A stretch of DNA of 40,143 nucleotides from a bacterium BMS3Bbin13 (GTDB taxonomy: Bacteria > Pseudomonadota > Gammaproteobacteria > 21-64-14): the NCBI GenBank assembly GCA_002897735.1, contig BDTW01000053.1, positions 1 through 40,143 of the forward strand, written 5' to 3'. The position numbers and the translations under genes are program-made. The notes under the pieces were generated by a model. That model made no database searches. It saw only the letters and a program-made list of their open reading frames with translations, and was not told the origin of the DNA. This document shows positions 9,234-37,393 of this stretch, one piece after another (positions within the stretch are counted from its first letter, which is position 1; each line of letters starts with the position of its first letter).

Positions 9234-9268
9234 GTCGGCGGGCCGAGGCCCGCCCTACGAATATTCCA
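9234..9268. repeat. Palindromic repeat unit, copy A
   Basis: A 35-base sequence identical to 9471-9505. Its core at 9237-9254 is a perfect palindrome with 8-base arms GGCGGGCC and GGCCCGCC around GA, followed by CTACGAATATTCCA. Such cores followed by CCTAC recur widely in GC-rich proteobacterial genomes as dispersed extragenic palindromes (REP-like). Confidence 0.75.
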
Positions 9269-9353
9269 TGGGGTCGGTGGATGATGGTAGGACCCGCCCG
9301 GCCGACGACGTTTCGCGGCCACCCCGGCCGCTACGGAATGATTCGCCGCCGCC

Positions 9354-9426
9354 GACGGGGCGAGCCCCGCCCTACAGGCACCTCCCCCGTGTCGCGGCAC
9401 CCTTGTAGGGCGGGGCTCGCCCCGCC
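9354..9426. repeat. Pair of REP-like units in opposite orientation
   Basis: The unit at 9356-9376 (GGGGC-GA-GCCCC core, then GCCCTACA) recurs inverted at 9404-9424, 27 bases away. The pair can form one large cruciform. The core is a sequence variant of the one in copies A and B: the same shape, with GGGGC/GCCCC arms in place of GGGCC/GGCCC. Confidence 0.7.
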
Positions 9427-9470
9427 GGCGCCGCGGATCCGTGGTGATCGCGGTGGGTTTCCGCAACGGT

Positions 9471-9505
9471 GTCGGCGGGCCGAGGCCCGCCCTACGAATA
9501 TTCCA
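9471..9505. repeat. Palindromic repeat unit, copy B
   Basis: Identical over 35 bases to 9234-9268 and in the same orientation, ending about 50 bases before the mutS start codon. The remainder of 9076-9558 shows no gene on either strand. Confidence 0.75.
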
Positions 9506-9558
9506 CGGGATCGATCGCCCCCGCACCGCGCAAAAGCCGGATTTGTTAGACTCTCGCG

Positions 9559-12138
9559 ATGACCGTACCCGAGGCACAGTTTGCAGCCCACACCCCGATG
9601 ATGCGGCAGTACCTGCGCATCAAGGCCCACCATGCGGATGTGCTGCTGCTCTACCGGATGGGGGATTTCTACGAACTCTTCTACGAGGACGCGCAGCGCG
9701 CCGCGCGATTGCTGGACATCACACTGACCACGCGCGGGCGCTCGGCGGGCGAACCCATCCCGATGGCCGGTGTCCCGGTGCACTCGGTCGAGAACTATCT
9801 CGCGCGCCTGGTACGTCTCGGAGAGTCGGTCGCCATCTGCGAGCAGATCGGCGACCCGGGTGCCGCGCGCGGCCCCGTGGAACGGCGCGTCGTGCGCATC
9901 GTCACGCCCGGGACGCTCACCGACGAGGGCCTGCTCGCGGAGCGCACCGAGAACCTGCTGGGCGCGATCCACGCCGCGGGCGGGACCTGGGGCATCGCGG
10001 TACTGGAACTCTCCAGCGGGCGCTTCACGGTCCAGGAGGTGCGCGGCGCGGAGGCACTCGCCGCCGAACTGGAGCGGTTGCGACCCGCGGAACTGCTGGT
10101 CGGCGAGGAGACGGCGCTGCCGTGCGGCGTCGGCGAGCGCCCCGGCACCCGCCGGCACCCGCCCTGGTGCTTCGACGAGACCGGCGCGCGCATCGCGCTG
10201 GCGCGCCAGTTCGGCACGCGCGATCTCGCCGGTTTCGGCTGCGAGGACCTCGGCCCGGCCCTGGCGGCCGCCGGCTGCCTGCTGCAGTACGTCCAGGAGA
10301 CGCAACGCCTCGCCCTGCCGCACCTGCGCGGCCTGCAGGTGGAGCGCCCGGGCGAGGCGATCGTCCTCGACGCGGCCACGCGACGCAACCTGGAACTGGA
10401 ATTCAGCCTCGGCGGGCGACCCGAGCACACCCTCGTCGGCGTGCTCGACCACACCGCCACCGCCATGGGCGGGCGGCTGTTGCGCCGCTGGGTACACCGT
10501 CCGATCCGCGATCCGGAACGACTGCGCGCGCGCCACCACGCACTCGCGACACTAATCGAGGACCGCGCGTTCGAGGACCTGCACGCGAGCCTGCGCGGGA
10601 TCGGCGATCTCGAACGGATCCTCGCGCGCGTGGCGCTCAAGTCCGCGCGCCCGCGCGACCTCACCGGCCTGCGCGGCGCGCTCGCCCGGCTGCCCGAACT
10701 CCAGGCGCGGCTCGCACCGCTCGACTCCCCGTTGCCGCGTGATCTGGCCGTGCGCATCGCCGAGCACCCCGGCGTGCACGGCCTGCTCGCGCGGGCGCTC
10801 GTCGACCAGCCGCCGGTGACGATCCGCGACGGCGGGATGATCGCGCCGGGCTACGACGCCGAACTCGACGAGCTGCGCGAACTCTCCGAGCACGCCGACC
10901 GGTTCCTGGTCGAGTTGGAGGCGCGCGAGCGCGAACGCACCGGCATCGCCGGTCTGAAGGTCGGCTATAACCGGGTCCACGGCTATTACCTGGAGGTGAC
11001 CCGCGCCCGATCCGACTGCGTGCCCGCCGACTACGTGCGGCGTCAGACGCTCAAGGGCGCCGAGCGATACATTACCCCGGAACTCAAGGCCTTCGAGGAG
11101 AAGGTGTTGTCGGCGCGCGAGCGCGCGCTGGCGCGCGAGAAGGGACTCTACGAGGCGCTCCTCGAACGGTTGCTCGACGACCTGCCCGCGCTGCAGGAAT
11201 GCGCGGCGGCGCTCGCCGAACTCGACGTGCTCGCCGATCTCGCCGAGCGCGCCGACACGCTCGATTACCGGGCGCCGGAACTCACCCCGACCCCCGGTAT
11301 CCGCATCGAGGGCGGGCGCCACCCGGTCGTGGAGCGGGTGATCGACGAACCGTTCGTCGCCAACGACGTGGACCTGGACGAATCGCGACGCATGCTGATC
11401 ATCACCGGTCCGAACATGGGCGGCAAGTCGACCTACATGCGTCAGAGCGCGCTGATCGTACTGCTGGCCCACATCGGCGCCTACGTGCCGGCGCGGCGCG
11501 CCGTGATCGGACCGGTGGACCGGATCTTCACCCGCATCGGCGCCGCCGACGATCTCGCCGGCGGGCGCTCGACCTTCATGGTGGAGATGACCGAGACGGC
11601 CAACATCCTGCACAACGCCACGGATCAGTCACTGGTGCTGATGGACGAGATCGGCCGCGGCACGAGCACCTTCGACGGGCTGGCGCTCGCCTGGGCGTGC
11701 GCCGTGGAACTCGCCGCGCGCGTGCGCGCCTACACGCTGTTCGCCACCCACTACTTCGAACTGACCGCACTCGCCGGGGAGATCGCCGGCATCGACAACG
11801 TGCACCTGGAAGCGGTCGAGCACGGCGAGGCCATCGTGTTCCTGCACGCGGTGCGCGAGGGACCCGCCGATCGCAGCTACGGGCTGCACGTGGCGCAGCT
11901 CGCCGGCGTCCCGCGCCCGGTCATCGAACAGGCGCGCGAGCGCCTGGAGGAACTCGAACGACGCACCCCGGCACCGGCCGGCGCCCCCCAGTTGCCGCTC
12001 TTCGACGCGCAGACCCCGCCCGCCCCGCAACACCCGGCCCTGGAACGACTGCGCGCGCTGGACCCGGACAGCCTCAGCCCGCGCGCAGCACTGGAACTGC
12101 TCTACGAACTCAAGGCCTCAGCCGGTCAGAAACGATAG
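9559..12138 (+). CDS. mutS: DNA mismatch repair protein MutS
   Basis: The protein has 859 residues, the usual size. The mismatch-contacting Phe-x-Glu motif is FYE at 37-39 ([11 protein letters not shown]). Connector, lever and clamp domains follow. The ATPase domain has Walker [10 protein letters not shown] at 617-625, the [14 protein letters not shown] segment, Walker [17 protein letters not shown] and the [10 protein letters not shown] switch. The C-terminal end has a PQLPLFDA segment and a last helix [12 protein letters not shown], seen in enteric-type MutS. It binds mismatches as a dimer and recruits MutL. No strong Shine-Dalgarno precedes the ATG. The 3' end overlaps the 3' end of the convergent barrel gene by 13 bases. 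Confidence 0.98.
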
Positions 12139-25280: not shown

Positions 25281-26618
25281 ATGGACTGCACGGCACCCGC
25301 CACCCTGACGGACCTGTACGAACTCACCATGCTCCAGGGCTACCTGGAACAGGGCATGCATGCCCGCGCGGTCTTCGAGTTCTTCGTACGACGGCTGCCG
25401 CCGGAGCGTAATTTTCTGGTGGCCGCCGGCCTGGAACAGGTGCTCGACTACCTGGAGTCCGCGCACTTCACACCGGAGGAGATCGACTGGTTGGCGCGTA
25501 GCGGCCGGTTCAACCGTACATTTCCCGATTATTTGGCCGGGTTCCGGTTCTCGGGCGACGTCCATGCCATGCCCGAGGGCACCGTCTTCTTCGCCGACGA
25601 GCCGATCCTGCGCGTGAGCGCCCCGCTGCCCGAGGCGCAACTGGTCGAGACGCGCATCATCAACCTGCTGCACTTGCAGACGCTGATCGCCTCCAAGGCC
25701 GCGCGCTGCGTACTGGCGGCACCGGACAAGGTGCTCGTCGACTTCGGCCTGCGCCGCGCCCACGGCGCCGAGGCCGGACTCTACGCCGCGCGTGCGAGTT
25801 ACCTGGCCGGGTTCGCGGCGACCTCCACCGTGGCGGCCGGCATCCGCTTTGCCATCCCGGTCTCGGGGACGATGGCACACTCCTTCGTCCAGGCGCACGA
25901 GGACGAGGAAACCGCATTCGAACACTTCGCGCACGCCCAGCCGAACCATGTGGTATTGCTCATCGATACCTACGACACCGAGGCGGCCGCCCGCAAGGTC
26001 GTCACCCTCGCCGCGCGCCTGCGCGGTGAGGGGATCCGGGTACGCGGCGTGCGCCTCGACAGCGGAGACCTCGGCGCGCATGCACGCGCCGTGCGCGCGA
26101 TCCTCGACGCGGGCGGACTGAACGACGTGGAGATCTTCGCCAGCGGCAACCTGGACGAATACGTCCTCGCCCGACTGCTGGGTGAAGGGGCCCCCATCGA
26201 CGGCTTCGGCATCGGCACGCGGGTGGACACTTCGGCGGATGCGCCCTATCTCGACTGCGCCTACAAACTCGAGGAATATGAGGGACGCCCGCGACGCAAG
26301 CGATCCGAAGGCAAGGCGACCTGGCCCGGCCGCAAACAGGTGTTTCGCCGTTACCGCGACGACGGCACGATGGCCGGCGATGTACTGGCCCTGGCCGACG
26401 CCGCGGTGCAGGGTGAGCCGTTGCTCGAACCGTGCATGCACGGCGGGCGGCGGATCCGCGCAACACCGGCGCTCGCGGAGATCCGCCGCCGCACCGCGCA
26501 ACAACTCGCGCGCCTGCCCGCGCCGCTGCGCACGCTGCACCCGGCCGCACCCTATCCGGTGGAAGTCGATCCCGGTCTCAAGGCACTCGTGCGGCGCATG
26601 GACGAGGAGCAAACGTAA
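25281..26618 (+). CDS. pncB: Nicotinate phosphoribosyltransferase
   Basis: The protein has 445 residues from the ATG at 25281; it starts with TLTDLYELTMLQGYLEQGM, the opening of the family. Landmarks are ILRVSAPLPEAQLVETRIINLLHLQTLIASKA (split in the family into the strand and helix of the active site), VDFGLRRAHG, the LIDTYDTEAAARK and VRLDSGDLGAHA segments that hold the phosphoribose-binding loop, and FGIGTRVDTS. It joins nicotinate and PRPP to give nicotinate mononucleotide with ATP hydrolysis, the Preiss-Handler entry to NAD. A second, broken copy of its last 53 codons lies at 30012-30169. Downstream is the repeat-flanked helicase gene. Confidence 0.95.
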   Translation: MDCTAPATLTDLYELTMLQGYLEQGMHARAVFEFFVRRLPPERNFLVAAGLEQVLDYLESAHFTPEEIDWLARSGRFNRTFPDYLAGFRFSGDVHAMPEGTVFFADEPILRVSAPLPEAQLVETRIINLLHLQTLIASKAARCVLAAPDKVLVDFGLRRAHGAEAGLYAARASYLAGFAATSTVAAGIRFAIPVSGTMAHSFVQAHEDEETAFEHFAHAQPNHVVLLIDTYDTEAAARKVVTLAARLRGEGIRVRGVRLDSGDLGAHARAVRAILDAGGLNDVEIFASGNLDEYVLARLLGEGAPIDGFGIGTRVDTSADAPYLDCAYKLEEYEGRPRRKRSEGKATWPGRKQVFRRYRDDGTMAGDVLALADAAVQGEPLLEPCMHGGRRIRATPALAEIRRRTAQQLARLPAPLRTLHPAAPYPVEVDPGLKALVRRMDEEQT

Positions 26619-26684
26619 TCGGCGGGGAAGCAGCCGGTCGCGTGAAATCCCTCGTGACACGAATGGCACCAAGTCGAATCCCTC

Positions 26685-26766
26685 GTGACACCGCTCTGCG
26701 GTGTCACGTCTCCCTTCCGAGCCGCTCCGCGGCGCACAGATAGGTGACACCGCAGAGCGGTGTCAC
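26685..26766. repeat. Left palindrome pair P1-spacer-P2
   Basis: P1 (26685-26707) and P2 (26744-26766) are 23-base perfect palindromes with 10-base arms GTGACACCGC and GCGGTGTCAC; the 3-base centres TCT and AGA make them inverted copies of each other. The 36-base spacer includes GCCGC-TCC-GCGGC. The pair could pair as one long stem or as two hairpins. The same elements recur at 29943-30002 and 30224-30246 on the other side of the helicase gene. Confidence 0.85.
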
Positions 26767-27027
26767 CAGTCACAGTCACCAGTCAGTTCGACGCCGCCTA
26801 CGGCCTAACGCACATAACCTATTGATTCAACGGAAACTGAATCCCAAAACTTGAGTTACTATCTCACCTCGTATGGCGCAAACTTTGGTATTCTTTCATA
26901 GGTAAATGCCCTTCCCTTGGCAGAGATCGGAGATTCACAGGCGACCGCACTATGGTCAAACCCGGGTGAGTCCCCCGGCATAGCCGGGGCATACCTCCAC
27001 CGAGCCGGCGCTAAAACGGATTCCAAA
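26767..27027. other. A+T-rich upstream region of the helicase gene
   Basis: After the P2 palindrome come short repeats of AGTCAC, then from about 26810 to 26910 a clearly A+T-richer stretch than the rest of the window, likely to hold the helicase promoter. I could not fix -35 and -10 boxes. A reading frame continuous with the helicase opens at a TTG at 26917, but these 37 codons do not look coding. Confidence 0.4.
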
Positions 27028-29886
27028 ATGAAACTGCTCGTATACTCCGGTCTCGATACCGATTCGATCCCCGGTTACGCGAAACTCGCGGCCTTTCTCG
27101 AGCGGGGCGACTTCCGCTCCGCCGAGGTCAAGAAGATCAGCGGAAACCTCTACCGCGCTCGGCTCAACCATACCGACCGCTTGCTGTTCTCGATCTACCG
27201 ACATGGGGACGAGCGCTACGCCCTGATCCTCGAGCACGTCCCGCACCACGCGTATGCCCACTCCCGCTTCCTCGCGCACGGTGCGAAGATCGATGGTTCG
27301 AAGATCCCGGTCGCCGATGCGGCCGATGCCGAGACCGCACCACAGCTCGGCTACGTCAATCCCCGCCTCAGTCATTTTCACCTGCTCGACAAGATTCTCT
27401 CCTTCGATGACGCACAGGAGGCGGTCTACCGACAGCCGGAGCCCCTGATCGTCATCGGCTCGGCCGGCAGCGGCAAGACGGCGATCACCCTGGAGAAGAT
27501 GCGCGGAGTCTCCGGCCACCTGCTCTACGTCACCCGCTCGGCGTTCCTCGCGCAGAATGCGCGCGCACTCTATTACGCCCATGGTTATGATCGCGACGAT
27601 CAGGAGATCGACTTTCTATCCTTTCGTGAGTATCTCGAAAGCATCCACGTCCCGCAGGGTCGGGAGATCACGCCGCCGGCCTTCGCCGACTGGCTGGCGC
27701 GCCGACGCCCGTCGCGCGCCGTACGCGACGCGCATCGTCTGTTCGAGGAGTTCCAGGGGGCGATCACGGGCGCCGATGTGACCCGCCCGTACCTTTCGCG
27801 CGAAGAGTACCTCGGGCTCGGTGTGCGCCAGTCGATCTTCCCCGTCGAGGACCGGGCGGTAGTCTATGATCTGTTCGAAAAATACCTGTGTCTTCTCCGC
27901 GACGGGAACTGGTTCGATCCGAACCTCATCAGCCACGAATGGCTCGCCCGGGTCGAGCCGTGTTACGACTTCGTGGTCGTCGACGAGGTCCAGGACCTGA
28001 CCAACGTGCAATTGCGGTTGATCCTCGGGGCCCTGCACGATGCACGCCGTTTCCTGCTGTGTGGTGATGCCAACCAAGTCGTGCACCCGAATTTCTTCTC
28101 CTGGGCCAAGGTCAAAACGCTGTTCTGGCAGGCTCGTGATACAGCGGAGGCGGAAGCGACGGCACCGGCCGATCTCATCCGCATCCTCAACTCCAATTTC
28201 CGAAACTCGCCCCAGGTCACGGAGGTGGCGAACCGGCTGCTTCGCATCAAACAGCTACGCTACGGTTCCGTGGACCGCGAAAGCAACTATTTGGTCACCA
28301 GCCGCGGCCCCACTCGCGGGCGGGCCGTGCTGCTCGAGGGCGGCGAGGCGCTCGAGCGGGACCTCGACGAACGCACCGCTCAGTCGGCGCGCTTCGCGAT
28401 TCTCGTGCTGCACCCCGAACAGAAACCCGAGGTGCGCCGGCGCTTCCACACACCACTGGTCTTCTCGGTGCAGGAGGCCAAGGGCCTGGAATACGAAAAT
28501 GTATTGCTTTACCACTTCGTCTCGACCGAGGCAAAGCGCTTCGCGGAGGTCTCCGGGGAATTGACGGGGGACGATCTTACCGGCGAGTTGCGCTACGCCC
28601 GGGCCAGAGACAAAAGCAACAAGTCGCTCGAGGTGTACAAGTTCTACATCAATTCTCTGTATGTCGCGGTGACCCGCGCGGTGCGCAATCTCTACCTCCT
28701 CGAGTCCCACACCGACCACCCGCTGCTACGGCTGCTCGGTCTCGGGCGCTCGCACGGTGCGGCCGCCGACATTGAAGAACCGCAGCACTCCAGCCTCGAC
28801 GAATGGCGGCGCGAGGCACAGCGCCTTGCCCTGCAGGGCAAGGAGGAACAGGCCGAGGAGATCCGCAATCAGATTCTTCACCAACACGAAGTACCGTGGA
28901 AGGTGCTCGACGAGGAAACGGTCGCCGCGTTGCGCCGGCGAGCCTTGGAGGGCGGCGACAAGGCGGCGTCCATCCAACTCCTCGAATACGCCATCACCTA
29001 TAGGGATCGGGACCTCATAGAGTCGCTGGCACGGGTCGGCGTCGGTGCCGCCCGCCGCCTGGACAAGGCCGCCAAGGTACTGGAAAGCAAGTACCACCAA
29101 GCCTACCGGTACAACAATCCAGTGGCCGTGCTGCGCGAAGTCGATCGCTATGGTCCGGATTTTCGCAACCCCCTGGGCCGGACCCCGTTGATGATCGCAA
29201 GCCTGGTGGGCAACGCCGCGCTGATCGAACGCCTGCTGGAACGCGGTGCCGATCGCTCGCCGGTGGACGCCAACGGACTCGATGCGTACCAGATCGCGTT
29301 GCTTCAAACCTGCACGCAACCGCGCTACGCCCGTACACGACTGGCGGAGGTCCACCGCCTGCTGGCCCCCGACACGCTCGACCTACAGGTGGATGAGCGT
29401 CTGGTCAAGCTCGATCGGCGCAGCATGGAGTATCTCATGCTTAACCTCGCGATGGCGCTGTTCTACGTGCGCCTGCGCGAAAACCTCGAACATGCGGGAC
29501 GTTTCCTCAGCGCCGGGGACTTCGAGCAGGCCCTGGCCCACTTCCCCGAGGAGGTCGTCGCGCAGCGGCGCAAGCGCCGGGCATACATTTCTTCCATCCT
29601 CTCCAAGAACGAGGTCTCGCGTACGGGGCCCTATAATCGCAAACTGTTCCGTCGCATACGCCACGGGCAATACCTGCCGAACCCCGCCCTGTCGTTGCGC
29701 GTGCGCGGGCACTGGGAGCCGATCTACGGGAGGGTGCGCCTCGAGCGACTCGGCGAAGCCGCCGCTTCGCTTCGCGCGCATCTCGCCACTCCGGTGGCGG
29801 CCTCTCCCGGAGCGCGGCCCTCGTCGCACGCGGTGGAACCGCAACCGCCCGATCCGGCCGAGCCGGATCTGCTCCAGGATCTGTAG
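27028..29886 (+). CDS. SF1 (UvrD/Rep-like) helicase with ankyrin-type repeat
   Basis: The protein has 952 residues from the ATG at 27028. Residues 1-95 (KKISGNLYRARLNHTDRLLF, then SIYRHGDERYALILEHVPHH) resemble the small RelE/ParE toxin fold, as an N-terminal module. Helicase motifs follow: Walker A GSAGSGKT 144-151, Walker B VVVDEVQD 316-323, GDANQVVHPN, motif IV NSNFRNSPQV, motif V SVQEAKGLEYENVLL 480-494 and motif VI YVAVTRAVRN 545-554. The segment at about 711-760 has one clear ankyrin-type repeat (GRTPLMIASLVGNAALIERL, then LERGADRSPVDANG). The C-terminal 200 residues are helical and basic with a Pro-rich end. It should be an ATP-driven DNA translocase. No nuclease motif is seen. It stands alone between duplicated repeats and beside Wadjet, so a role in defence is inferred. 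I do not recognise a named family. Confidence 0.85.
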   Translation: MKLLVYSGLDTDSIPGYAKLAAFLERGDFRSAEVKKISGNLYRARLNHTDRLLFSIYRHGDERYALILEHVPHHAYAHSRFLAHGAKIDGSKIPVADAADAETAPQLGYVNPRLSHFHLLDKILSFDDAQEAVYRQPEPLIVIGSAGSGKTAITLEKMRGVSGHLLYVTRSAFLAQNARALYYAHGYDRDDQEIDFLSFREYLESIHVPQGREITPPAFADWLARRRPSRAVRDAHRLFEEFQGAITGADVTRPYLSREEYLGLGVRQSIFPVEDRAVVYDLFEKYLCLLRDGNWFDPNLISHEWLARVEPCYDFVVVDEVQDLTNVQLRLILGALHDARRFLLCGDANQVVHPNFFSWAKVKTLFWQARDTAEAEATAPADLIRILNSNFRNSPQVTEVANRLLRIKQLRYGSVDRESNYLVTSRGPTRGRAVLLEGGEALERDLDERTAQSARFAILVLHPEQKPEVRRRFHTPLVFSVQEAKGLEYENVLLYHFVSTEAKRFAEVSGELTGDDLTGELRYARARDKSNKSLEVYKFYINSLYVAVTRAVRNLYLLESHTDHPLLRLLGLGRSHGAAADIEEPQHSSLDEWRREAQRLALQGKEEQAEEIRNQILHQHEVPWKVLDEETVAALRRRALEGGDKAASIQLLEYAITYRDRDLIESLARVGVGAARRLDKAAKVLESKYHQAYRYNNPVAVLREVDRYGPDFRNPLGRTPLMIASLVGNAALIERLLERGADRSPVDANGLDAYQIALLQTCTQPRYARTRLAEVHRLLAPDTLDLQVDERLVKLDRRSMEYLMLNLAMALFYVRLRENLEHAGRFLSAGDFEQALAHFPEEVVAQRRKRRAYISSILSKNEVSRTGPYNRKLFRRIRHGQYLPNPALSLRVRGHWEPIYGRVRLERLGEAAASLRAHLATPVAASPGARPSSHAVEPQPPDPAEPDLLQDL

Positions 29887-29942
29887 TCGCACCCGGTCAG
29901 CACGCGCAGGGACTCCACACGGGCCGAGCACCTCGTTCACGC

Positions 29943-30002
29943 CTCCCCTTCCGGGCCGCTCCGCGGCGCAAACAGATGGGTGACACCGCAGAGCGGTGTC
30001 AC
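29943..30002. repeat. Right copy of the spacer-P2 unit
   Basis: CTCCCCTTCCGGGCCGCTCC onward repeats the left spacer (26708-26743) with a few differences, then P2 recurs exactly at 29980-30002. It is a direct repeat of the left spacer-P2 unit and closes the helicase segment on its right. Confidence 0.8.
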
Positions 30003-30011
30003 CCGTCAGCG

Positions 30012-30169
30012 GCGCAACGCCGGCGCTCGCGGAGATCCGCCGCCGTACCGCGCAACGACTCGCGCGCCTGCCCGCGCCGCTGCGTGCGATGCACCCGACC
30101 GTACCCTACCCGGTTGGAGATCCCGGTCTCAAGGCACTCGCGCGACGCATGGACGAGACGCAACCGTAA
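30012..30169 (+). pseudogene. Duplicated 3' end of pncB
   Basis: This stretch matches pncB 26458-26618 along its whole length, with about nine in ten bases equal by eye and one 3-base deletion that keeps the frame. Read in the pncB frame it gives ATPALAEIRRRTAQRLARLP through LKALARRMDETQP and ends in TAA at 30167-30169. Homology continues after the stop (AGCCGGTCGC). There is no start and no catalytic part. The two copies are 3,554 bases apart and flank the helicase gene. Confidence 0.85.
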
Positions 30170-30223
30170 TCGCCGGGAAAACAGCCGGTCGCCTGGACCC
30201 TCGGACACCTCACCCTCTCCCTC

Positions 30224-30246
30224 GTGACACCGCTCTGCGGTGTCAC
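30224..30246. repeat. Right copy of palindrome P1
   Basis: An exact copy of the left P1 (26685-26707), again preceded by CCCTC and followed by GTCTCCC. It follows the pncB fragment, as P1 follows pncB on the left. About 50 bases later jetD ends on the other strand. Confidence 0.85.
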
Positions 30247-30295
30247 GTCTCCCCCCTTTCGAGTGCGTTGAAACCGTTCCGGACGGATCCCTTAC

Positions 30296-31498
30296 TTACT
30301 CACCGGTTGACGTATCGGGGACATACGCCTCCTGATCGACAAAACGGGCCGAACGGCGAAGAAACGGCAGCAGCCGGGTGTCCGCAAAACGGCAACCCGT
30401 CCCACCCGCCGGGACCTGTTGTTCGCCCTTGCGCACATCTTCATCGGGCCCGTGTCCTTCCCCCCGTTCCGCGCGGGCGAGAAGCGCCCGATAGCCGGGC
30501 TGCCAAGCCCGGGTGCCGGGGAACACGTCGCGCAATGCGCGCAGGATCTCCATGGCGGAAAAATCGAGATCGCCGAAGAACCATGTCTCCAGCGGGCATG
30601 GGACATCCGTCCAGGCGCGGGCCAAACGTTCGACACCTTCCGGATGGGATGCCAAGGAGGCATGCATCGACACCCCCTCGGGGCTGCGCAGCCGCTTGGC
30701 GGCGCCCATGAAACCCGAGATCCAGACCACGGCCATCCGTTCCGGATCGACACCTGGCAGACGGTTCTTTACCGCGCTGTGGTAGGTGGTCTCGTTTTCG
30801 ATGAGCAGCACGCTCTCCCACGCCGGCCCCGGCACATGTATATTGATCAGTATCGGTTTTTCGGGGAAGGCGTCCGGATCACCGACCAGTCGGGTCAGGG
30901 CCTCGCGGCGCGCATCCAGCAGTTTCGAGATGCCCCAGAATGCCGCGGCGGACGCTTCGCGCAGATACAGGGAAGGATCCAGCTTCGTCAAATCGGCGAG
31001 CCGCTCCACCACCCGGGCGGCCGAACGACCCGCCACCCGGATGGGTTGGTGCCGAAAACCCGACAACCGCGCCTCCGAGAGGGCGAAGCGGCCTTCGAGT
31101 GCCGCCGACCATTGCTCCCGCCACGATCCTTGCCCCGCGGGGCGATCGATCGCCCCGCGGATCACCGCCTCACCTTCCGCGGTCAGGACGATCTGCGGTT
31201 CGGTCTCATAGGGGGGGACATTCGCCGCCCACCGCTTTGGCCCCCTCAACTCGATCCAGCCCCTCTTGGCAACGGCCTCCAGCAATTCCCAGGCGAACTC
31301 CCGATCGGGTGTCTCTGCGCGGTCGAAAAAGACGGGGGTCTTGTCCGGTTTGAGCCGCAGTCGGGGCGGGCGCTCGCGCTGCGCCATGGGCTGGCGGTCC
31401 ACCAGGTCGATCAGCCGGTGCAGCACGTCGGCAATGCCCGGTTCGCCCGCCCAACGCCTCAGCACATCCACCGTATCGTCGTTGTTCCCATCGCCCAC
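30296..31498 (-). CDS. jetD: Wadjet nuclease subunit JetD (divergent)
   Basis: The protein has 400 residues from the GTG at 31496-31498, with GGGAGG about ten bases upstream. Residues 60-200 form the N-terminal winged-helix and linker region. The C-terminal half is the Toprim-fold domain of the DUF2220 type: LLIENETTYHS with Glu234 or Glu236 and FFGDLDFSAMEI with Asp310 and Asp312 as metal ligands, matching the Topo VI-A-like nuclease site of JetD. JetD cuts plasmid DNA that the JetABC motor has sensed as a small closed circle. In the usual Wadjet operon jetD is the fourth gene on the same strand; here it is divergent from jetA across an 87-base shared promoter region. Confidence 0.88.
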   Translation of the reverse strand: MGDGNNDDTVDVLRRWAGEPGIADVLHRLIDLVDRQPMAQRERPPRLRLKPDKTPVFFDRAETPDREFAWELLEAVAKRGWIELRGPKRWAANVPPYETEPQIVLTAEGEAVIRGAIDRPAGQGSWREQWSAALEGRFALSEARLSGFRHQPIRVAGRSAARVVERLADLTKLDPSLYLREASAAAFWGISKLLDARREALTRLVGDPDAFPEKPILINIHVPGPAWESVLLIENETTYHSAVKNRLPGVDPERMAVVWISGFMGAAKRLRSPEGVSMHASLASHPEGVERLARAWTDVPCPLETWFFGDLDFSAMEILRALRDVFPGTRAWQPGYRALLARAERGEGHGPDEDVRKGEQQVPAGGTGCRFADTRLLPFLRRSARFVDQEAYVPDTSTGE

Positions 31499-31585: not shown

Positions 31586-33046
31586 GTGGACGCACTGTTC
31601 GACATTATCGATTCCGGTTTCTTCAAGCCACTGACCGGCAAGTACCGCGGGCTGTTCGCCGCCTGCATCACCGCCCTGTTCGAGCGGCTGCACGGCCCCT
31701 ATGCCGACTACCGTGTCAATGTCACCTACGGCGAACTACGGGATCTCTTCCAGCCCCTGGTCGCCGCGAGCCCGAACGACGCCACCGATGGGGACGCCGA
31801 CGAAGAGTTGGACCCGACGGGAAAAGAGTCGGACCGGGTCCGCACCGTAATCTGCCGCCTGACGGAGACCGGCTGGCTTGAGACACGCCTGGACAAAGGC
31901 ACCATGGTTTCGGTCTATGGCCTGACCCAGACCGGAAAGACCTTGGCCGATACCCTTTACCGCCTGCAGGGCGGCGGTATGCGCACTATCCGGCGCAATG
32001 TGCGTTACACCCGCAATTCCCTCGAGGCCTATGTTCGCAGCGAGGGACGGGAACCCTATGAACTGTTGGACGCCTTCGACGCCGCCCAGCGCATCATGTC
32101 GGATCTCAGCGACGACATCGACGCACTGGAATCGCAGCGCCGCAAACTCACCGAAGACGTGGCACGCAGCCAGGGCGAAGGGGTGGCGGAGATCCTGCGC
32201 GAGTTGCGCCTGCGACTTCCGGAGGTAACCCGCAAGTTCACGGTGGAGTCCGTCGTCCAGTACCGCAGTCACATCGAAACCCTGCTGGACGGGATCCTGT
32301 ATTGGCCGCCGGAGCGGCGGGAGAAGGCGGACTCGGCCCTGTTACAGGCCCAGCCGCTGCTGATCCGGGAACTCGCGACGGGCGAAGCCCCCCTGCTGTG
32401 GCTGACCGGCGCCATCCGCGACCGGGTGACCGTCGCCATGGACGTGAAGATGCCGGAGCTGCGCGAGGCGGTCTCCAACTTCGGCCGTCGCATCCAACTC
32501 ATCGTCATGCAACAGTCGGCCCTGGCCACTCAGGGCCGGGATACCGCCGCCCGACTCATTGAGCGGCTAACGGTGCGGTCCCGGGAGGAACAGGACTCTC
32601 TGCTCCACCGGATGGCCGATGCCATGTTTCCCCGGTGGGTGCGACTGCCCGATCCGGGACGGATCCGGGTGGGAGAGCGTGCGGCGCGGCGGCGGCCCAT
32701 CGATACCGGTCTGGCACACCCGCGCCTGACCCGGGAGGAACGCCGCAACGCCTATATCCAACAGATGCTGGAGACCGCTTTTGCACTGACCGAGGCGGAC
32801 ATCGACCGTTATGTCCTGGATCAGATGGGTGCGGCAAGGGCCATGAGCCTGCGCCATTTCAACGTAAAAAAGGCCCTGGATCTGCTGGCGCTGAGCCATA
32901 GCATCGAGATCACGACACACCCCGATTCCGGCGACGAGTGGGACGTCGCCCCCGACTATGACGACACAGGGGAAATACGCCGGTTCGATACCGGCTACGG
33001 CCGCATGCAGGCCTTCACCCTCAGGCGCCGGAGCCGGACGCCATGA
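31586..33046 (+). CDS. jetA: Wadjet kleisin-like subunit JetA
   Basis: The protein has 486 residues from the GTG at 31586, preceded by CCGGGG. It starts with a winged-helix segment (VDALFDIIDSGFFKPLTGKYRGL) of the JetA family formerly called DUF5716, has YGLTQTGKTLADTLYRL, a long helical middle and a C-terminal winged helix (ADIDRYVLDQMGAARAMSLRHFNVKKALDLLAL). By analogy to MukF it bridges the two heads of the JetC dimer and carries JetB. It looks unlike the DUF3375 JetA of type I systems; the subtype is not certain. A much longer upstream frame is the shadow of jetD. The stop overlaps the jetB start as ATGA. Confidence 0.85.
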   Translation: MDALFDIIDSGFFKPLTGKYRGLFAACITALFERLHGPYADYRVNVTYGELRDLFQPLVAASPNDATDGDADEELDPTGKESDRVRTVICRLTETGWLETRLDKGTMVSVYGLTQTGKTLADTLYRLQGGGMRTIRRNVRYTRNSLEAYVRSEGREPYELLDAFDAAQRIMSDLSDDIDALESQRRKLTEDVARSQGEGVAEILRELRLRLPEVTRKFTVESVVQYRSHIETLLDGILYWPPERREKADSALLQAQPLLIRELATGEAPLLWLTGAIRDRVTVAMDVKMPELREAVSNFGRRIQLIVMQQSALATQGRDTAARLIERLTVRSREEQDSLLHRMADAMFPRWVRLPDPGRIRVGERAARRRPIDTGLAHPRLTREERRNAYIQQMLETAFALTEADIDRYVLDQMGAARAMSLRHFNVKKALDLLALSHSIEITTHPDSGDEWDVAPDYDDTGEIRRFDTGYGRMQAFTLRRRSRTP

Positions 33047-33726
33047 GCCGTTTCATCGACACCTTCCACGAAGAACTGGAGCGCACTCCCCTGCACGGCC
33101 TGCGCCCGTTCCAGGCGGTCATCCACCGGTTGCTGGCCCACGGCATCCTTGTCGCGGACGATTCGCAGACCGAGCGCCAACAATACGAGCAGTCGGTTTC
33201 CGCTTTCCCCCTGCTGCGGGACTGGTTCGAGATCGCCGGCCTGCGCCTCGAACACTACCGGGAATTCCGTTATCTGCGCCTGTATCCGCCCAACGCGCGC
33301 ATTCCCGGCGTCCACCAGGACGAGGAGGAGCACAGCGACGCCGCCGTCCTGCGCGAACGCTACAGCCCCATGGAAGCCCGTCTTCTGCTGGTGCTGCGCG
33401 CCCTCTACGATCAAGCGCTCACCCTGGGCAACCTGGGCGACAAGGGCGAGGCCGGCCTGCCCCTGGGGGATGTGTTCACCGCCATGATCACCATGTCGAA
33501 CACCCCCATGCCGGAGGCCGCCGGCGAGCGCGACCGCCTGTTCAAACGCATGAAACGACTCAAGGCCATCGACTACGTTTCCGGCGATGCGCCCGAATCG
33601 GAACGCTGGATCGCCATCCGCCCCATGATCACCACCCTCGTGAGCGGCGACCTGCTGGCCGACGCCATCCGGCGACTGGAAGGCGCGCAGGCGGAAGACC
33701 CGACGGCGGACGACGATGCGCATTGA
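33043..33726 (+). CDS. jetB: Wadjet subunit JetB (DUF4194)
   Basis: The protein has 227 residues. It matches the DUF4194 type of small winged-helix protein: FQAVIHRLLAHGILVADD near the start, RLEHYREFRYLRLYPP with an acidic YSPMEARLLLVLRALYDQAL helix, then LFKRMKRLKAIDYV and the end WIAIRPMITTLVSGDLL. By analogy to MukE it sits on JetA in the SMC complex. Start overlaps jetA by 4 bases and the stop overlaps jetC by 11, so all three are translated together. Confidence 0.88.
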   Translation: MSRFIDTFHEELERTPLHGLRPFQAVIHRLLAHGILVADDSQTERQQYEQSVSAFPLLRDWFEIAGLRLEHYREFRYLRLYPPNARIPGVHQDEEEHSDAAVLRERYSPMEARLLLVLRALYDQALTLGNLGDKGEAGLPLGDVFTAMITMSNTPMPEAAGERDRLFKRMKRLKAIDYVSGDAPESERWIAIRPMITTLVSGDLLADAIRRLEGAQAEDPTADDDAH

Positions 33727-36700
33727 CCGGGTAATCATCATCAACTGGGGCACCCTGCCCAACCGCGAATACGCGATGGGACCGCTGACCCTGTTCACCG
33801 GCGGAAACGGTACCGGCAAGACCACCCTGGCCGATGCGATCCAGACGGTGATGACGGCGGCACGCGACACCTTCTACAAGTTCAACCCCGGCCAGGACGA
33901 GAGTTCTCAGCGCGGCCGCTACGGCAAGGTGCCGCGCACCCTCGCCTCCTATGTGCTCGGCGCCGACCGCAACAAGCTGGCCCGACCCACCAGCGCCCAC
34001 GGCTACGTGGCGCTGGTGTTCCGCACCACGGCGGGCGTCGAGGCCGACGGCGATCCGTTCACCGCCCTGATCGGTGTGTCCGCCGACCTCGGCACCGACG
34101 GCAAGCGGCGGGCACCCCGGACCATCGACCAAGTCAACCTTATCCTGACGGGCGTCGCCCTGAAGCAGGGGGACCTCGTGACGGACGAGGGGGCGGGACG
34201 GCAGGACCGCATCGTTCCCGTCGAGAAGATCGAGAACCATCTGAAGGTACGCTTCGGCTCCAGGGCGGTCCGGGGCTTCCGTGACAAGATCGGCTACCTC
34301 AAGACCCTGTGGGGCTACCTGCGCAACTGCAACGGCATGGCGATCAGCGAACTGGAGGCGGCCCAGGCCACGCGCACCTGGTCGCGGCTGATGGCGCACA
34401 GCCCCATCGGGTCCATCAACGATTTCGTGCGCCACGAAATCCTCGAGCGGCGCGACGTGGCCGGCGATCTGGACCACATGATCCAGTCGGTGCAGACCTT
34501 CAACCAGCTCAAGCAGCAGGCGGCGGAACTCGAAGCCCGGATCGAAACGCTGCGCCGGATCGAACAGTACGGCACGCAGATCGAGCGCGGCTACAGGGCG
34601 CTTGTGGAAAAACGCCTGCTGCTGGCCGAGGTGGAACGGTTCGAACTGGAGCGACGGCGCGAGCAGGCGCAGGAACGGATAGAGACCTTCCGGCAGGAGC
34701 AGCACCGGCTGGGACAGCGGCGCACCATCTTGAAGAGCGAACTGGAACAGGCCGACGACACACGCATCCGCCTGGAAGCCGAACGCGGCGGCCATCCCGT
34801 ACTGATCCAAAAGCGCGATCTGGAGCGGACCCTCGAGGAAAATCGGAACCTGCAAAGAGAGCGGGTCACCGGACTGCTCGTCGCGTTACAGAACCTGCAA
34901 GGGAAACTCGACACCCTGGACCAATTGGCCGTCCTGGCCCCGGAACTGCGCAGCGATACCCAACTCGCCGACGGCGTCGCCGCCATCCGGAGCCGTGCCG
35001 CGCCCCTGTCCGCACTCGACCTCGGCGGCTTCCGGCGGCAGTTGCAGCAAACGATCGCCCGGGAAGAAAGCCTCTACGACCCCGCCCCCTTCGCCGCCTT
35101 CGCCGAACGGGCCGGCGGCGTGCACATCGACGACCTGCTGGCCGAAATCCGTGCGCAGGTGGCCAATCGGGACGGACTCCATGACAAGACCCTGCTGTCA
35201 CGGCAACGACTGGTCGACGAGCACCAACGGCTGTCCGAGGCCCTCACGGAAACCGAAAAACAGCTCGGACGGCTCCGCCGGGGCGAGCAGCCCCTGCCGC
35301 CGGCAACGGCCGCGGCCCTGGAGATCATACGGGAGGAGCAGCCCGGCGCACGGCCCCGCGTCCTGTGCGAACTGGTCGAGATGTCCGCGGGCCGGGAGGA
35401 CTGGCAGCCGGTCATCGAGGCCTACCTGGGCGGAAACCGCTTCGTCATCCTGGTGGAACCCGACTACGAATCCGGCACCACCCGGCTGCTGAAACAGCAG
35501 GGGCTGCACCGCTGCAAAATCGTCCAGGGCGAACATGCCCGCAAGGATGCCGCCCACCGTTCCGTCGAACCCAACACCCTGGTGAACTGCCTCAAGGTGG
35601 ACGACCCCACCGCCCTGGCCTATCTGCTGGGCAACTACGGAAACGTCAAACTGACCGGCGACATGGAGACCCTGCGCTGGACGCCCCGCGGCATCATGAA
35701 AGAGGGCTTCGCATCCGGCGGCTACACCCAGTTCCCCTGCCTGGCGCGCAGGGATGACATGGTATTCGGACACAAGGCCCGGGAATACCGGATCGAAAGC
35801 CTGCTGCAGAAAAAGCAGGAAACAGAGAAGGAACTGGCGCAAATCGACGAGCGGTTGGGCGCTCTCGGCAGGTTGTCGGACTGCCTGCAAACCCTGAAGA
35901 CCGATACCGTCCTGGAAGAGACGGCCATCACGCTCTACGACAATGCGGAACAGATGGCGCGGATCAGGGAACAGATCGCCGGGCTGGACCTGCGCGGTGC
36001 GGAGCCCCTGGAACAACGTTACCAAGCCGCACGGGTACAGATCGAACGTTTGAAAAAAGAACAGGAAGCCGCGATCCATCGTGAAGGTGAAATCGCAAAG
36101 GAGCTTCAATACCTCCACGAACAACTGGAACAATGTACGGGGGAACTGACGGCCGCCGGGAAGCGGCTGGAGACCGCCCGCGAGCGGGTTCGCGGGCTTT
36201 CCCGCCCCGACAAGGACTACGACGCGGACGACATCGTCGCCAAGATCGCCGCCCGGGCCCGCGGCGGCACCCATGAGGCGGAATCGCTGACGGCGCAAAT
36301 CGAACAGGAAGAACGGCAATTCAACGGCTACTGGCCGAACTACCGCGCCCTGATTCGGGAATACAACGGACAGGGCCACGCCCGCGACGAATCCGTCACC
36401 CTGCCTCTCCAGGCGCTCGAGGTGAACACCCTGAGGGGCAACGACGACTTCTTCCTGTTCATGTCAATCCAGCATGGGGTCCGCGCACGCCTCCACGTTC
36501 TCGAATCCTCCATCCTGATCGCCATCAGCGAACAGCTCGAGGGCATCAAGCAGGAGATCGACAAGGCGGTCACCAACGATTTCGTCAACTTGGTGATGGA
36601 CAACATTCGCAAGGGGGAACAGCAGATCCGCGACCTCAACCAGACCCTGAAACAACACCGGTTCGGCGACGAGGAGTTCGAATTCGTTGCGCATCCGCGG

Positions 36701-37393
36701 GAAGGCATCCACGGAAACTACCGGCGATTCTTCAAATCCGTCGCCGACAAATCGCTGCTCCACCAGGAGGCCTTCTCCATCTTCGACGACAATCAGTTCG
36801 ACGCCCGGGACATCCGCACCCGCGACGAGATCATGGACAAGCTGTTCCAGGGGGGAGACGCCCGGGTGCGGGAGGAACTTCTGCGCATGGCCGACTACCG
36901 GGAATATTTCGACTTCGACATCTACCGGGTGCACGAGGGCGAGCGCATCTCTCTGGCCGAGGACGCCACCGGCAGCGGCGGACAACTGGAAACCGCCGCC
37001 TACGCCATCCGCTCCGCCTCGGTCATCAACGCCTTCAAGCTGGGCGACCGCCGCAGCCCCCGGCATTGCCGCTTCCTGCTCTTCGACGAGACCTTCGCCA
37101 AGACCGACGAACAGCGCTCGGTGGAGATCCTCAAGCTGCTCACCCGATCACTGAAGCTGCAGATCCTTTTTGTCGTGCCCTCCCGCGCCGCCGGCGTCTT
37201 CAAGCCCGTCCTCACCGATCAGCACGTCTTTACCAAGTTCAACTCCGTCAATGCGCCGGGTGAGCTGAGCACCGTGGTGGAGGTGAAGTCGGAAACGCTG
37301 GACAGGGAGAAAGTGGCCCGGCTCTGGGAACAGCGAAAAGAAGAGGTCATGATTCAGGCAGGACTTGAATTCGACGCCATGGAGGACGAGTAG
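33716..37393 (+). CDS. jetC: Wadjet SMC-like ATPase JetC
   Basis: The protein has 1225 residues. Walker A is GGNGTGKT at 29-36. From about 230 to 520 and 690 to 950 it is coiled coil with a hinge-like globular part between (VLCELVEMSAGREDWQPVIEAYLGG). The C-terminal head has the ABC signature GSGGQ at 1086-1090 and Walker B LLFDETFAK with Asp1124 and Glu1125. MukB-like SMC subunits of this kind (COG4913) form the DNA-extruding motor of Wadjet: two JetABC dimers pull DNA loops and detect plasmids small enough to be pulled tight, which JetD then cleaves. The gene is intact, ends 54 bases before the convergent GH130 gene and has the same GC-rich codon use as its neighbours. Confidence 0.92.
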   Translation: MRIDRVIIINWGTLPNREYAMGPLTLFTGGNGTGKTTLADAIQTVMTAARDTFYKFNPGQDESSQRGRYGKVPRTLASYVLGADRNKLARPTSAHGYVALVFRTTAGVEADGDPFTALIGVSADLGTDGKRRAPRTIDQVNLILTGVALKQGDLVTDEGAGRQDRIVPVEKIENHLKVRFGSRAVRGFRDKIGYLKTLWGYLRNCNGMAISELEAAQATRTWSRLMAHSPIGSINDFVRHEILERRDVAGDLDHMIQSVQTFNQLKQQAAELEARIETLRRIEQYGTQIERGYRALVEKRLLLAEVERFELERRREQAQERIETFRQEQHRLGQRRTILKSELEQADDTRIRLEAERGGHPVLIQKRDLERTLEENRNLQRERVTGLLVALQNLQGKLDTLDQLAVLAPELRSDTQLADGVAAIRSRAAPLSALDLGGFRRQLQQTIAREESLYDPAPFAAFAERAGGVHIDDLLAEIRAQVANRDGLHDKTLLSRQRLVDEHQRLSEALTETEKQLGRLRRGEQPLPPATAAALEIIREEQPGARPRVLCELVEMSAGREDWQPVIEAYLGGNRFVILVEPDYESGTTRLLKQQGLHRCKIVQGEHARKDAAHRSVEPNTLVNCLKVDDPTALAYLLGNYGNVKLTGDMETLRWTPRGIMKEGFASGGYTQFPCLARRDDMVFGHKAREYRIESLLQKKQETEKELAQIDERLGALGRLSDCLQTLKTDTVLEETAITLYDNAEQMARIREQIAGLDLRGAEPLEQRYQAARVQIERLKKEQEAAIHREGEIAKELQYLHEQLEQCTGELTAAGKRLETARERVRGLSRPDKDYDADDIVAKIAARARGGTHEAESLTAQIEQEERQFNGYWPNYRALIREYNGQGHARDESVTLPLQALEVNTLRGNDDFFLFMSIQHGVRARLHVLESSILIAISEQLEGIKQEIDKAVTNDFVNLVMDNIRKGEQQIRDLNQTLKQHRFGDEEFEFVAHPREGIHGNYRRFFKSVADKSLLHQEAFSIFDDNQFDARDIRTRDEIMDKLFQGGDARVREELLRMADYREYFDFDIYRVHEGERISLAEDATGSGGQLETAAYAIRSASVINAFKLGDRRSPRHCRFLLFDETFAKTDEQRSVEILKLLTRSLKLQILFVVPSRAAGVFKPVLTDQHVFTKFNSVNAPGELSTVVEVKSETLDREKVARLWEQRKEEVMIQAGLEFDAMEDE

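Follow-up and report, generated by a model that had tools for sequence, protein, structure and literature searches.

REPs are usually regarded as inert intergenic repeats. In known REPIN and REP-RAYT systems (PMC3116915, Bertels and Rainey 2011; PMC2817692), the palindromes form inverted doublets and dispersed copies, RAYT genes (for REP-associated tyrosine transposases) lie between inverted copies, and REPINs with their flanks form tandem clusters, all of which is also seen here. The present system differs in that the GTAG/GTGG foot is absent, that the foot is instead CTN with its last base pairing with the base after the palindrome, and that the repeated units include the ends of host genes (pncB, hsdS and others). 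Nunvar et al. (2010, PMC2817692) report four cases of a rayt 3′ end incorporated in BIMEs. There, as here, the inter-REP segment runs from a gene 3′ end to the next REP, and a RAYT in genome G249 provides the parallel case; however, the genes concerned here are ordinary host genes, and a helicase lies between the copies. TnpAREP proteins cleave at a CT 5′ or 3′ of the REP (PMC8266576), and CT is also the conserved foot of the REPs described below. REPs have further been placed where the units of tandem duplications in the chromosome join (Shyamala 1990, as cited in PMC11708052); a REP likewise marks the join here, but the units are short (about 80–300 bp) and local. The passages of literature covered, mostly from outside the subscription journals, held no description of REPs at which the ends of ordinary host genes are doubled.

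The pncB locus and its two REPINs

The window is the whole 40,143-nucleotide stretch of DNA that was analysed. The features of the locus are as follows.

25281..26618, + strand: intact pncB (nicotinate phosphoribosyltransferase); Pfam NAPRTase domains, NCBIfam NF006696 at 667 bits
26458..26618, + strand: copy A, the in-frame 3′ end of pncB (sequence alignment)
26685..26766: left REPIN (P1-spacer-P2), an inverted REP pair around a short spacer
26685..26707, + strand: P1, REP palindrome with a 'c' type end (CTC foot; 11th pair C-G) (pattern search)
26721..26733, + strand: small hairpin GCCGC-TCC-GCGGC within the spacer of the left REPIN (read from the sequence)
26744..26766, − strand: P2, the P1 palindrome inverted, with a 'g' type end (CTG foot) (pattern search)
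27028..29886, + strand: UvrD-type SF1 helicase with ankyrin-like repeats, 952 aa (Pfam PF00580, PF13245, Ank)
29932..29947, + strand: P1-type REP remnant, both feet present, 17 nt of the hairpin deleted (read against REP flanks)
29955..29967, + strand: small hairpin of the right REPIN (read from the sequence)
29980..30002, − strand: P2′, REP (pattern search)
30012..30169, + strand: copy A′, pncB 3′ end fragment without the 5′ part of the gene (sequence alignment)
30224..30246, + strand: P1′, REP of the c type (pattern search)
30296..31498, − strand: jetD of Wadjet type I (PADLOC JetD1, E 7e-86)
31586..37393, + strand: jetA, jetB and jetC of Wadjet type I (PADLOC JetA1, JetB1, JetC1; Pfam JetA)

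The initial annotation had described a recurrence of the last 161 bp of pncB at 30012–30169, and computed alignments bear this out. Identity is 90% between 26458–26565 and 30012–30119 and 88% between 26568–26644 and 30119–30195, and a single alignment of 26458–26714 with 30012–30253, which includes P1, gives 84.8% over 257 columns (E 2.0e-74). The recurrence of the palindromes with their spacer holds equally, since spacer and P2 (26704–26772 against 29937–30008) match at 90% identity (E 1.4e-19). The resemblance to the left copy ends a few bases past P1′.

The permuted order of units that had been described for the right side has to be given up. Positions 29932–29941 read CTCGT/TCACG, followed by a GCCTCC-like sequence directly 5′ of the right spacer, and are the two feet of a REP that has lost 17 nt of its hairpin. 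With these hairpin-less feet in front of the spacer no permutation is needed: the right side consists of P1 remnant, spacer and P2′, that is, a REPIN, followed by the copied pncB end A′ and P1′. The helicase had already been placed between direct spacer-P2 copies; with the remnant on the right, it lies between two REPINs in direct orientation.

With the same-genus genome G001 as outgroup, the 16 point differences between A and A′ are derived in A′ in 10 cases and in A in 4, with 2 unclear, which agrees with the earlier view that the event is not recent. The derived changes in A′ are evenly spread over the three codon positions (4/3/3). A′ is the drifting copy, and most of its divergence postdates the duplication. 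An assembly artefact at the repeats of this metagenome-type assembly, in which the genome is in 62 contigs, is hardly credible, given that the copies differ by about 12–15% and that the same layout occurs in other assemblies, including a 2-contig genome.

An empty site downstream of pncB, which the initial annotation had proposed to seek in relatives, is present in G001, the only same-genus genome compared. Its pncB (79% amino acid identity) has a lon-type gene (a name assigned by eye to the translation) as its immediate downstream neighbour, with no helicase, Wadjet or REP at the site; the upstream neighbour of pncB is conserved, at 77% amino acid identity. The window's own genome (G000) has no close copy of this lon-type gene (best partial match 40%), and no strain was found with a state intermediate between the empty and the present site.

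A genome-wide REP family with its own RAYT

A single 23-mer, GTGACACCGC-TCT-GCGGTGTCAC, makes up both P1 and P2, which face in opposite directions. A search of the 2.69-Mb genome with the pattern GTGACACCGC-nnn-GCGGTGTCAC returned 34 copies on 10 contigs, compared with none for the same pattern read backwards; one copy with a 4-nt loop from the inspected loci brings the total to 35. A shorter pattern with 3 mismatches gave 35 matches, one of them poor, and 1 match in the control. The stem is perfect at 10–11 bp in nearly all 35 copies, and the palindrome is absent from G001 at up to 2 mismatches. The palindromes of the initial annotation belong to a family of 35 copies across the genome and are not private to the pncB locus. 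As a short palindrome with many dispersed copies in one genome, arranged at 26685–26766 as two inverted copies around a short spacer, P1 and P2 are a REP family in REPIN arrangement. Inverted REP pairs whose spacer holds a gene end also occur on contigs C38, C10 and C48.

The unpaired GT(A/G)G foot of the GTAG super-family is not found in these REPs; their foot is CTC, CTG or CTT, directly at the stem. The third base of the foot pairs with the first base past the palindrome, giving CTC..G and CTG..C types in the own genome. The same covariation of the foot with the outermost pair is seen among 83 copies from 80 other loci (CTC..G 42, CTT..A 16, CTG..C 3), taken from other records, many of them from Chromatiaceae and Desulfobulbaceae.

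The cognate transposase of the family, the RAYT P0001 (194 residues, C38:54299–54883), is encoded on another contig than the window; it was located by reading the ORF between REPs, and is flanked by inverted REPs at C38:54243 and 54877. It passes NCBIfam NF047646 (REP_Tyr_transpos) with 99.3 bits (cut-off 80), and matches no Pfam family at E ≤ 0.001. A search of the genome with Y1_Tnp (PF01797) gave 8 matches, none adjoining a palindrome cluster. P0001 carries NHLH, WQ and YIHNNP at positions 77, 135 and 156, that is, the signature NH[LIV]H, WQ, YIH[QN]NP that PMC6006769 gives for subclass 2.6 of TnpAREP (group 5 of Bertels), a likeness in motifs. According to the same paper, genes of this subclass are flanked by atypical, non-GTAG hairpins and come mostly from Bacteroidetes, whereas the relatives in hairpin design found here are from the window's own class.

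Among the loci of the closer homologs of P0001 (L172–L193, including the query itself as L172), 21 of 22 have a perfect stem of at least 9 bp near the gene, L188 being the exception, and in most of them the foot is CTN and the stem carries a loop resembling TCC or TCT. Some match is present in 107 of the 273 genomes of the class. Nothing could be learned from the class-wide co-occurrence of the RAYT and the exact palindrome: the exact pattern occurs in only 2 of the 273 genomes, since each RAYT comes with a palindrome of different sequence. The system is of the REP-RAYT kind, with a palindrome that varies along with its transposase.

Several further repeats were noted. A 117-bp unit ending in the palindrome occurs at three unlinked sites (C18:24700–24815, C42:7541–7656 and C56:66549–66665; 91–95% identical) and looks like a REP-ended miniature element, which hints at movement. 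A 253-bp segment adjoining the palindrome is shared by C38:107214–107466 and C60:6822–7074 (93% identical). A half REP (GTGACACCG) often stands 15–25 nt upstream of a complete one (L060, L070, L088, C10, C57) and is perhaps a remnant of tandem REPs. A row of same-orientation copies on C56 raised the possibility of integron-like cassettes, which was rejected as the intervening DNA is unrelated, comprising RAYT-like and other debris. A second palindromic repeat family, unrelated to the first, lies at 9234–9560 of the window, with related copies on C16, C38 and C56.

Gene ends copied at REPs in other loci

The initial annotation treated the pncB duplication as a single case and did not see that gene-end copies recur beside the same REP elsewhere. 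A gene 3′ end is repeated with one or more REPs at the join in 3 of 11 loci of the own genome: at pncB, on C16 (end of a PF00300 gene, 185 bp, 98.4%) and on C42 (end of hsdS, 120 bp, 91%), where the second hsdS copy retains an apparently native ATGA junction with the next gene. C38 also carries a 57-bp internal fragment of the neighbouring gene; a possible degenerate gene-end copy on C18 was inspected and not accepted. In addition, inverted REPs enclose hsdS-like ends on C38, C10 and C48 (on C48 by similarity), with no adjoining hsdS gene seen at these three loci.

Elsewhere, gene-end copies were found in 2 of the 80 external loci, at L123 (end of an Oxidored_q6, hydrogenase-type small subunit gene, 158 bp, 95%) and beside a REP at L137 (end of a DctM gene), and in 1 of the 7 loci of genome G065 (L209; end of a CTP_transf_3 gene, 81 bp, 95%). 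Of the 20 loci in the 2-contig genome G249, L256 holds a copied shikimate-kinase-like 5′ end (named by eye), L248 the 5′ part of a RAYT, and L265 a doubled RAYT 3′ end with a REP between the copies (153 bp, 99.3%). At L265 the 5-bp sequence GGCAA occurs inside the gene and at the join, and again past the second REP, and the locus is a tandem duplication through microhomology, joined no more than about 10 nt from the hairpin foot. At pncB and L256 the join points are likewise within about 10 nt of the outer foot. The side of the REP facing the copied fragment varies, being the outer foot at pncB, C16, L265 and L256 and the inner side at C42, L137 and L123. At L123:3941–4486, a HicA-like ORF (PF07927) and a DUF1902 partner lie between the two gene-end copies and a REP.

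The layout of gene end, REP and copied gene end is thus present at two further own-genome loci and in three other genomes. Site-specific integration of an island at the pncB 3′ end, with the carried end copy as attR, would also leave the target gene intact and its 3′ end doubled. This is very improbable, however, because the copies flank a single gene, the borders are marked by REPs and the same layout occurs at unrelated genes. A recombinase was looked for between 26619 and 30011, and no such ORF was noticed in the ORF list; of the ORFs in that stretch, the helicase was the one scanned with profiles.

The association of repeats with REPs was assessed by masking the palindrome and counting the direct-repeat families with an edge within 60 nt of it, against 2000 shuffles. 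In the own genome 4 of 8 families lie near the palindrome (against 0.62 expected, a count that 6 of 2000 shuffles attained), one of the four, on C56, being a RAYT-like upstream fragment and no gene end. Enrichment was not significant in the other samples: the 80 external loci had 3 of 22 families against 1.7 expected (472 of 2000 shuffles), or 5 of 22 against 2.4 at 100 nt (195 of 2000), and G249 had 19 of 125 against 10.9 (285 of 2000). The link between gene ends and REPs is statistically backed in the own genome, and elsewhere consists of single well-formed cases.

Proposed origin of the duplication and of the helicase insertion

Homologs of the helicase occur at other places in G001 (59%) and G051 (46%), and on 139 plasmid records at 45–46%. 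Of these records, 128 cover 80% or more of the query, and MOB-suite types 121 as mobilizable or conjugative; one homolog lies in a DotA/TraY plasmid context. In a solved-structure search with the whole helicase, the best 60 rows included ankyrin-type matches to the repeat part, which did not inform on function. Downstream of the helicase at pncB, all four Wadjet type I genes (jetA, jetB, jetC and jetD) lie together (PADLOC). Given the plasmid and off-site homologs, the empty site in G001 and the Wadjet system downstream of the gene, the helicase probably represents an acquired gene of plasmid type, set in a neighbourhood of the defence type.

We propose, with a probability of roughly 0.7, that RAYT cutting or hairpin breakage at a REP doubled the pncB end, and that the helicase entered between the REPINs later. 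The starting state would be a REPIN immediately downstream of pncB. Either RAYT cleavage at the CT dinucleotide or stalling at the hairpin would have broken the DNA at the REP foot, and rejoining inside the pncB 3′ end would have given a short tandem duplication of gene end and REP with the REP at the join. A plasmid-type helicase may then have entered between the two REPINs, most simply by REPIN-REPIN recombination. The downstream copy has since drifted as non-coding DNA, as its sequence shows, and one REP hairpin has been lost. Points against this scheme are the non-significant enrichment outside the own genome, the varying side of the REP that faces the copied fragment, and the absence of the GTAG foot known from the studied families. 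The duplication followed by insertion of the initial annotation fits these data, though it missed the genome-wide REP family with its own transposase. With the rayt genes (PMC2817692) and the tandem REPIN clusters with flanks (PMC3116915) as precedents, the pncB case belongs with a known kind, and the copied pncB tail looks like a side effect of such repeat elements, not like a new integration system. The copied unit itself is most likely without function, and pncB remains intact.

Campbell-type integration, in which a circle carrying the helicase and a REPIN (or the pncB end and a REP) recombined with the chromosomal copy, as the initial annotation had suggested, is a less likely alternative, and is also one possible route for the entry of the helicase in the proposed scheme. 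It is consistent with the two direct REPINs around the helicase, with the mostly mobilizable or conjugative plasmids that carry homologs, and with the HicA-like pair that also lies between two gene-end copies in L123. However, the ORF list shows no plasmid or integrase gene between the copies, no circle or intermediate was seen, and such an event accounts for the two REPINs while the extra pncB end needs a separate origin; A′, being without third-codon-position bias, gives no sign of having arrived as a functional allele.

The reverse order, in which pncB end and P1 were copied by template switch into a REPIN already behind the helicase, is unlikely. The copied segment does start beside P2′ and end within about 7 nt of P1, and the hsdS ends between REPs on C38, C10 and C48, where no hsdS gene was seen to adjoin, would be of the same kind. 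Against this, a jump of 3.5 kb is required, whereas other gene-end copies lie near their gene (0.06 kb on C16, 0.24 kb on C42, 0.26 kb at L137 and about 1 kb at L123).

To return to duplication by breakage at the REP, a much broader version, in which the GTAG-less REP-RAYT repeatedly copies gene ends by cutting at the foot and the doubled ends serve as landing places for cargo, is distinctly doubtful. The cargo would be the plasmid-type helicase here and the HicA/HicB-like pair in L123, with the host gene unbroken. If RAYTs or hairpins do keep doubling gene ends, they would be a source of small duplications and of gene-tail exchange, and would provide sites for insertion at no cost to the host gene. 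The near-identical copies and the microhomology at L265 offer a fresh, concrete junction of this type.

Two minor features lie near the start of the contig or close to it in the window: a Y1 transposase fragment at 108–227 and, at 427–1554 on the − strand, an ORF judged by eye to resemble a tyrosine integrase.
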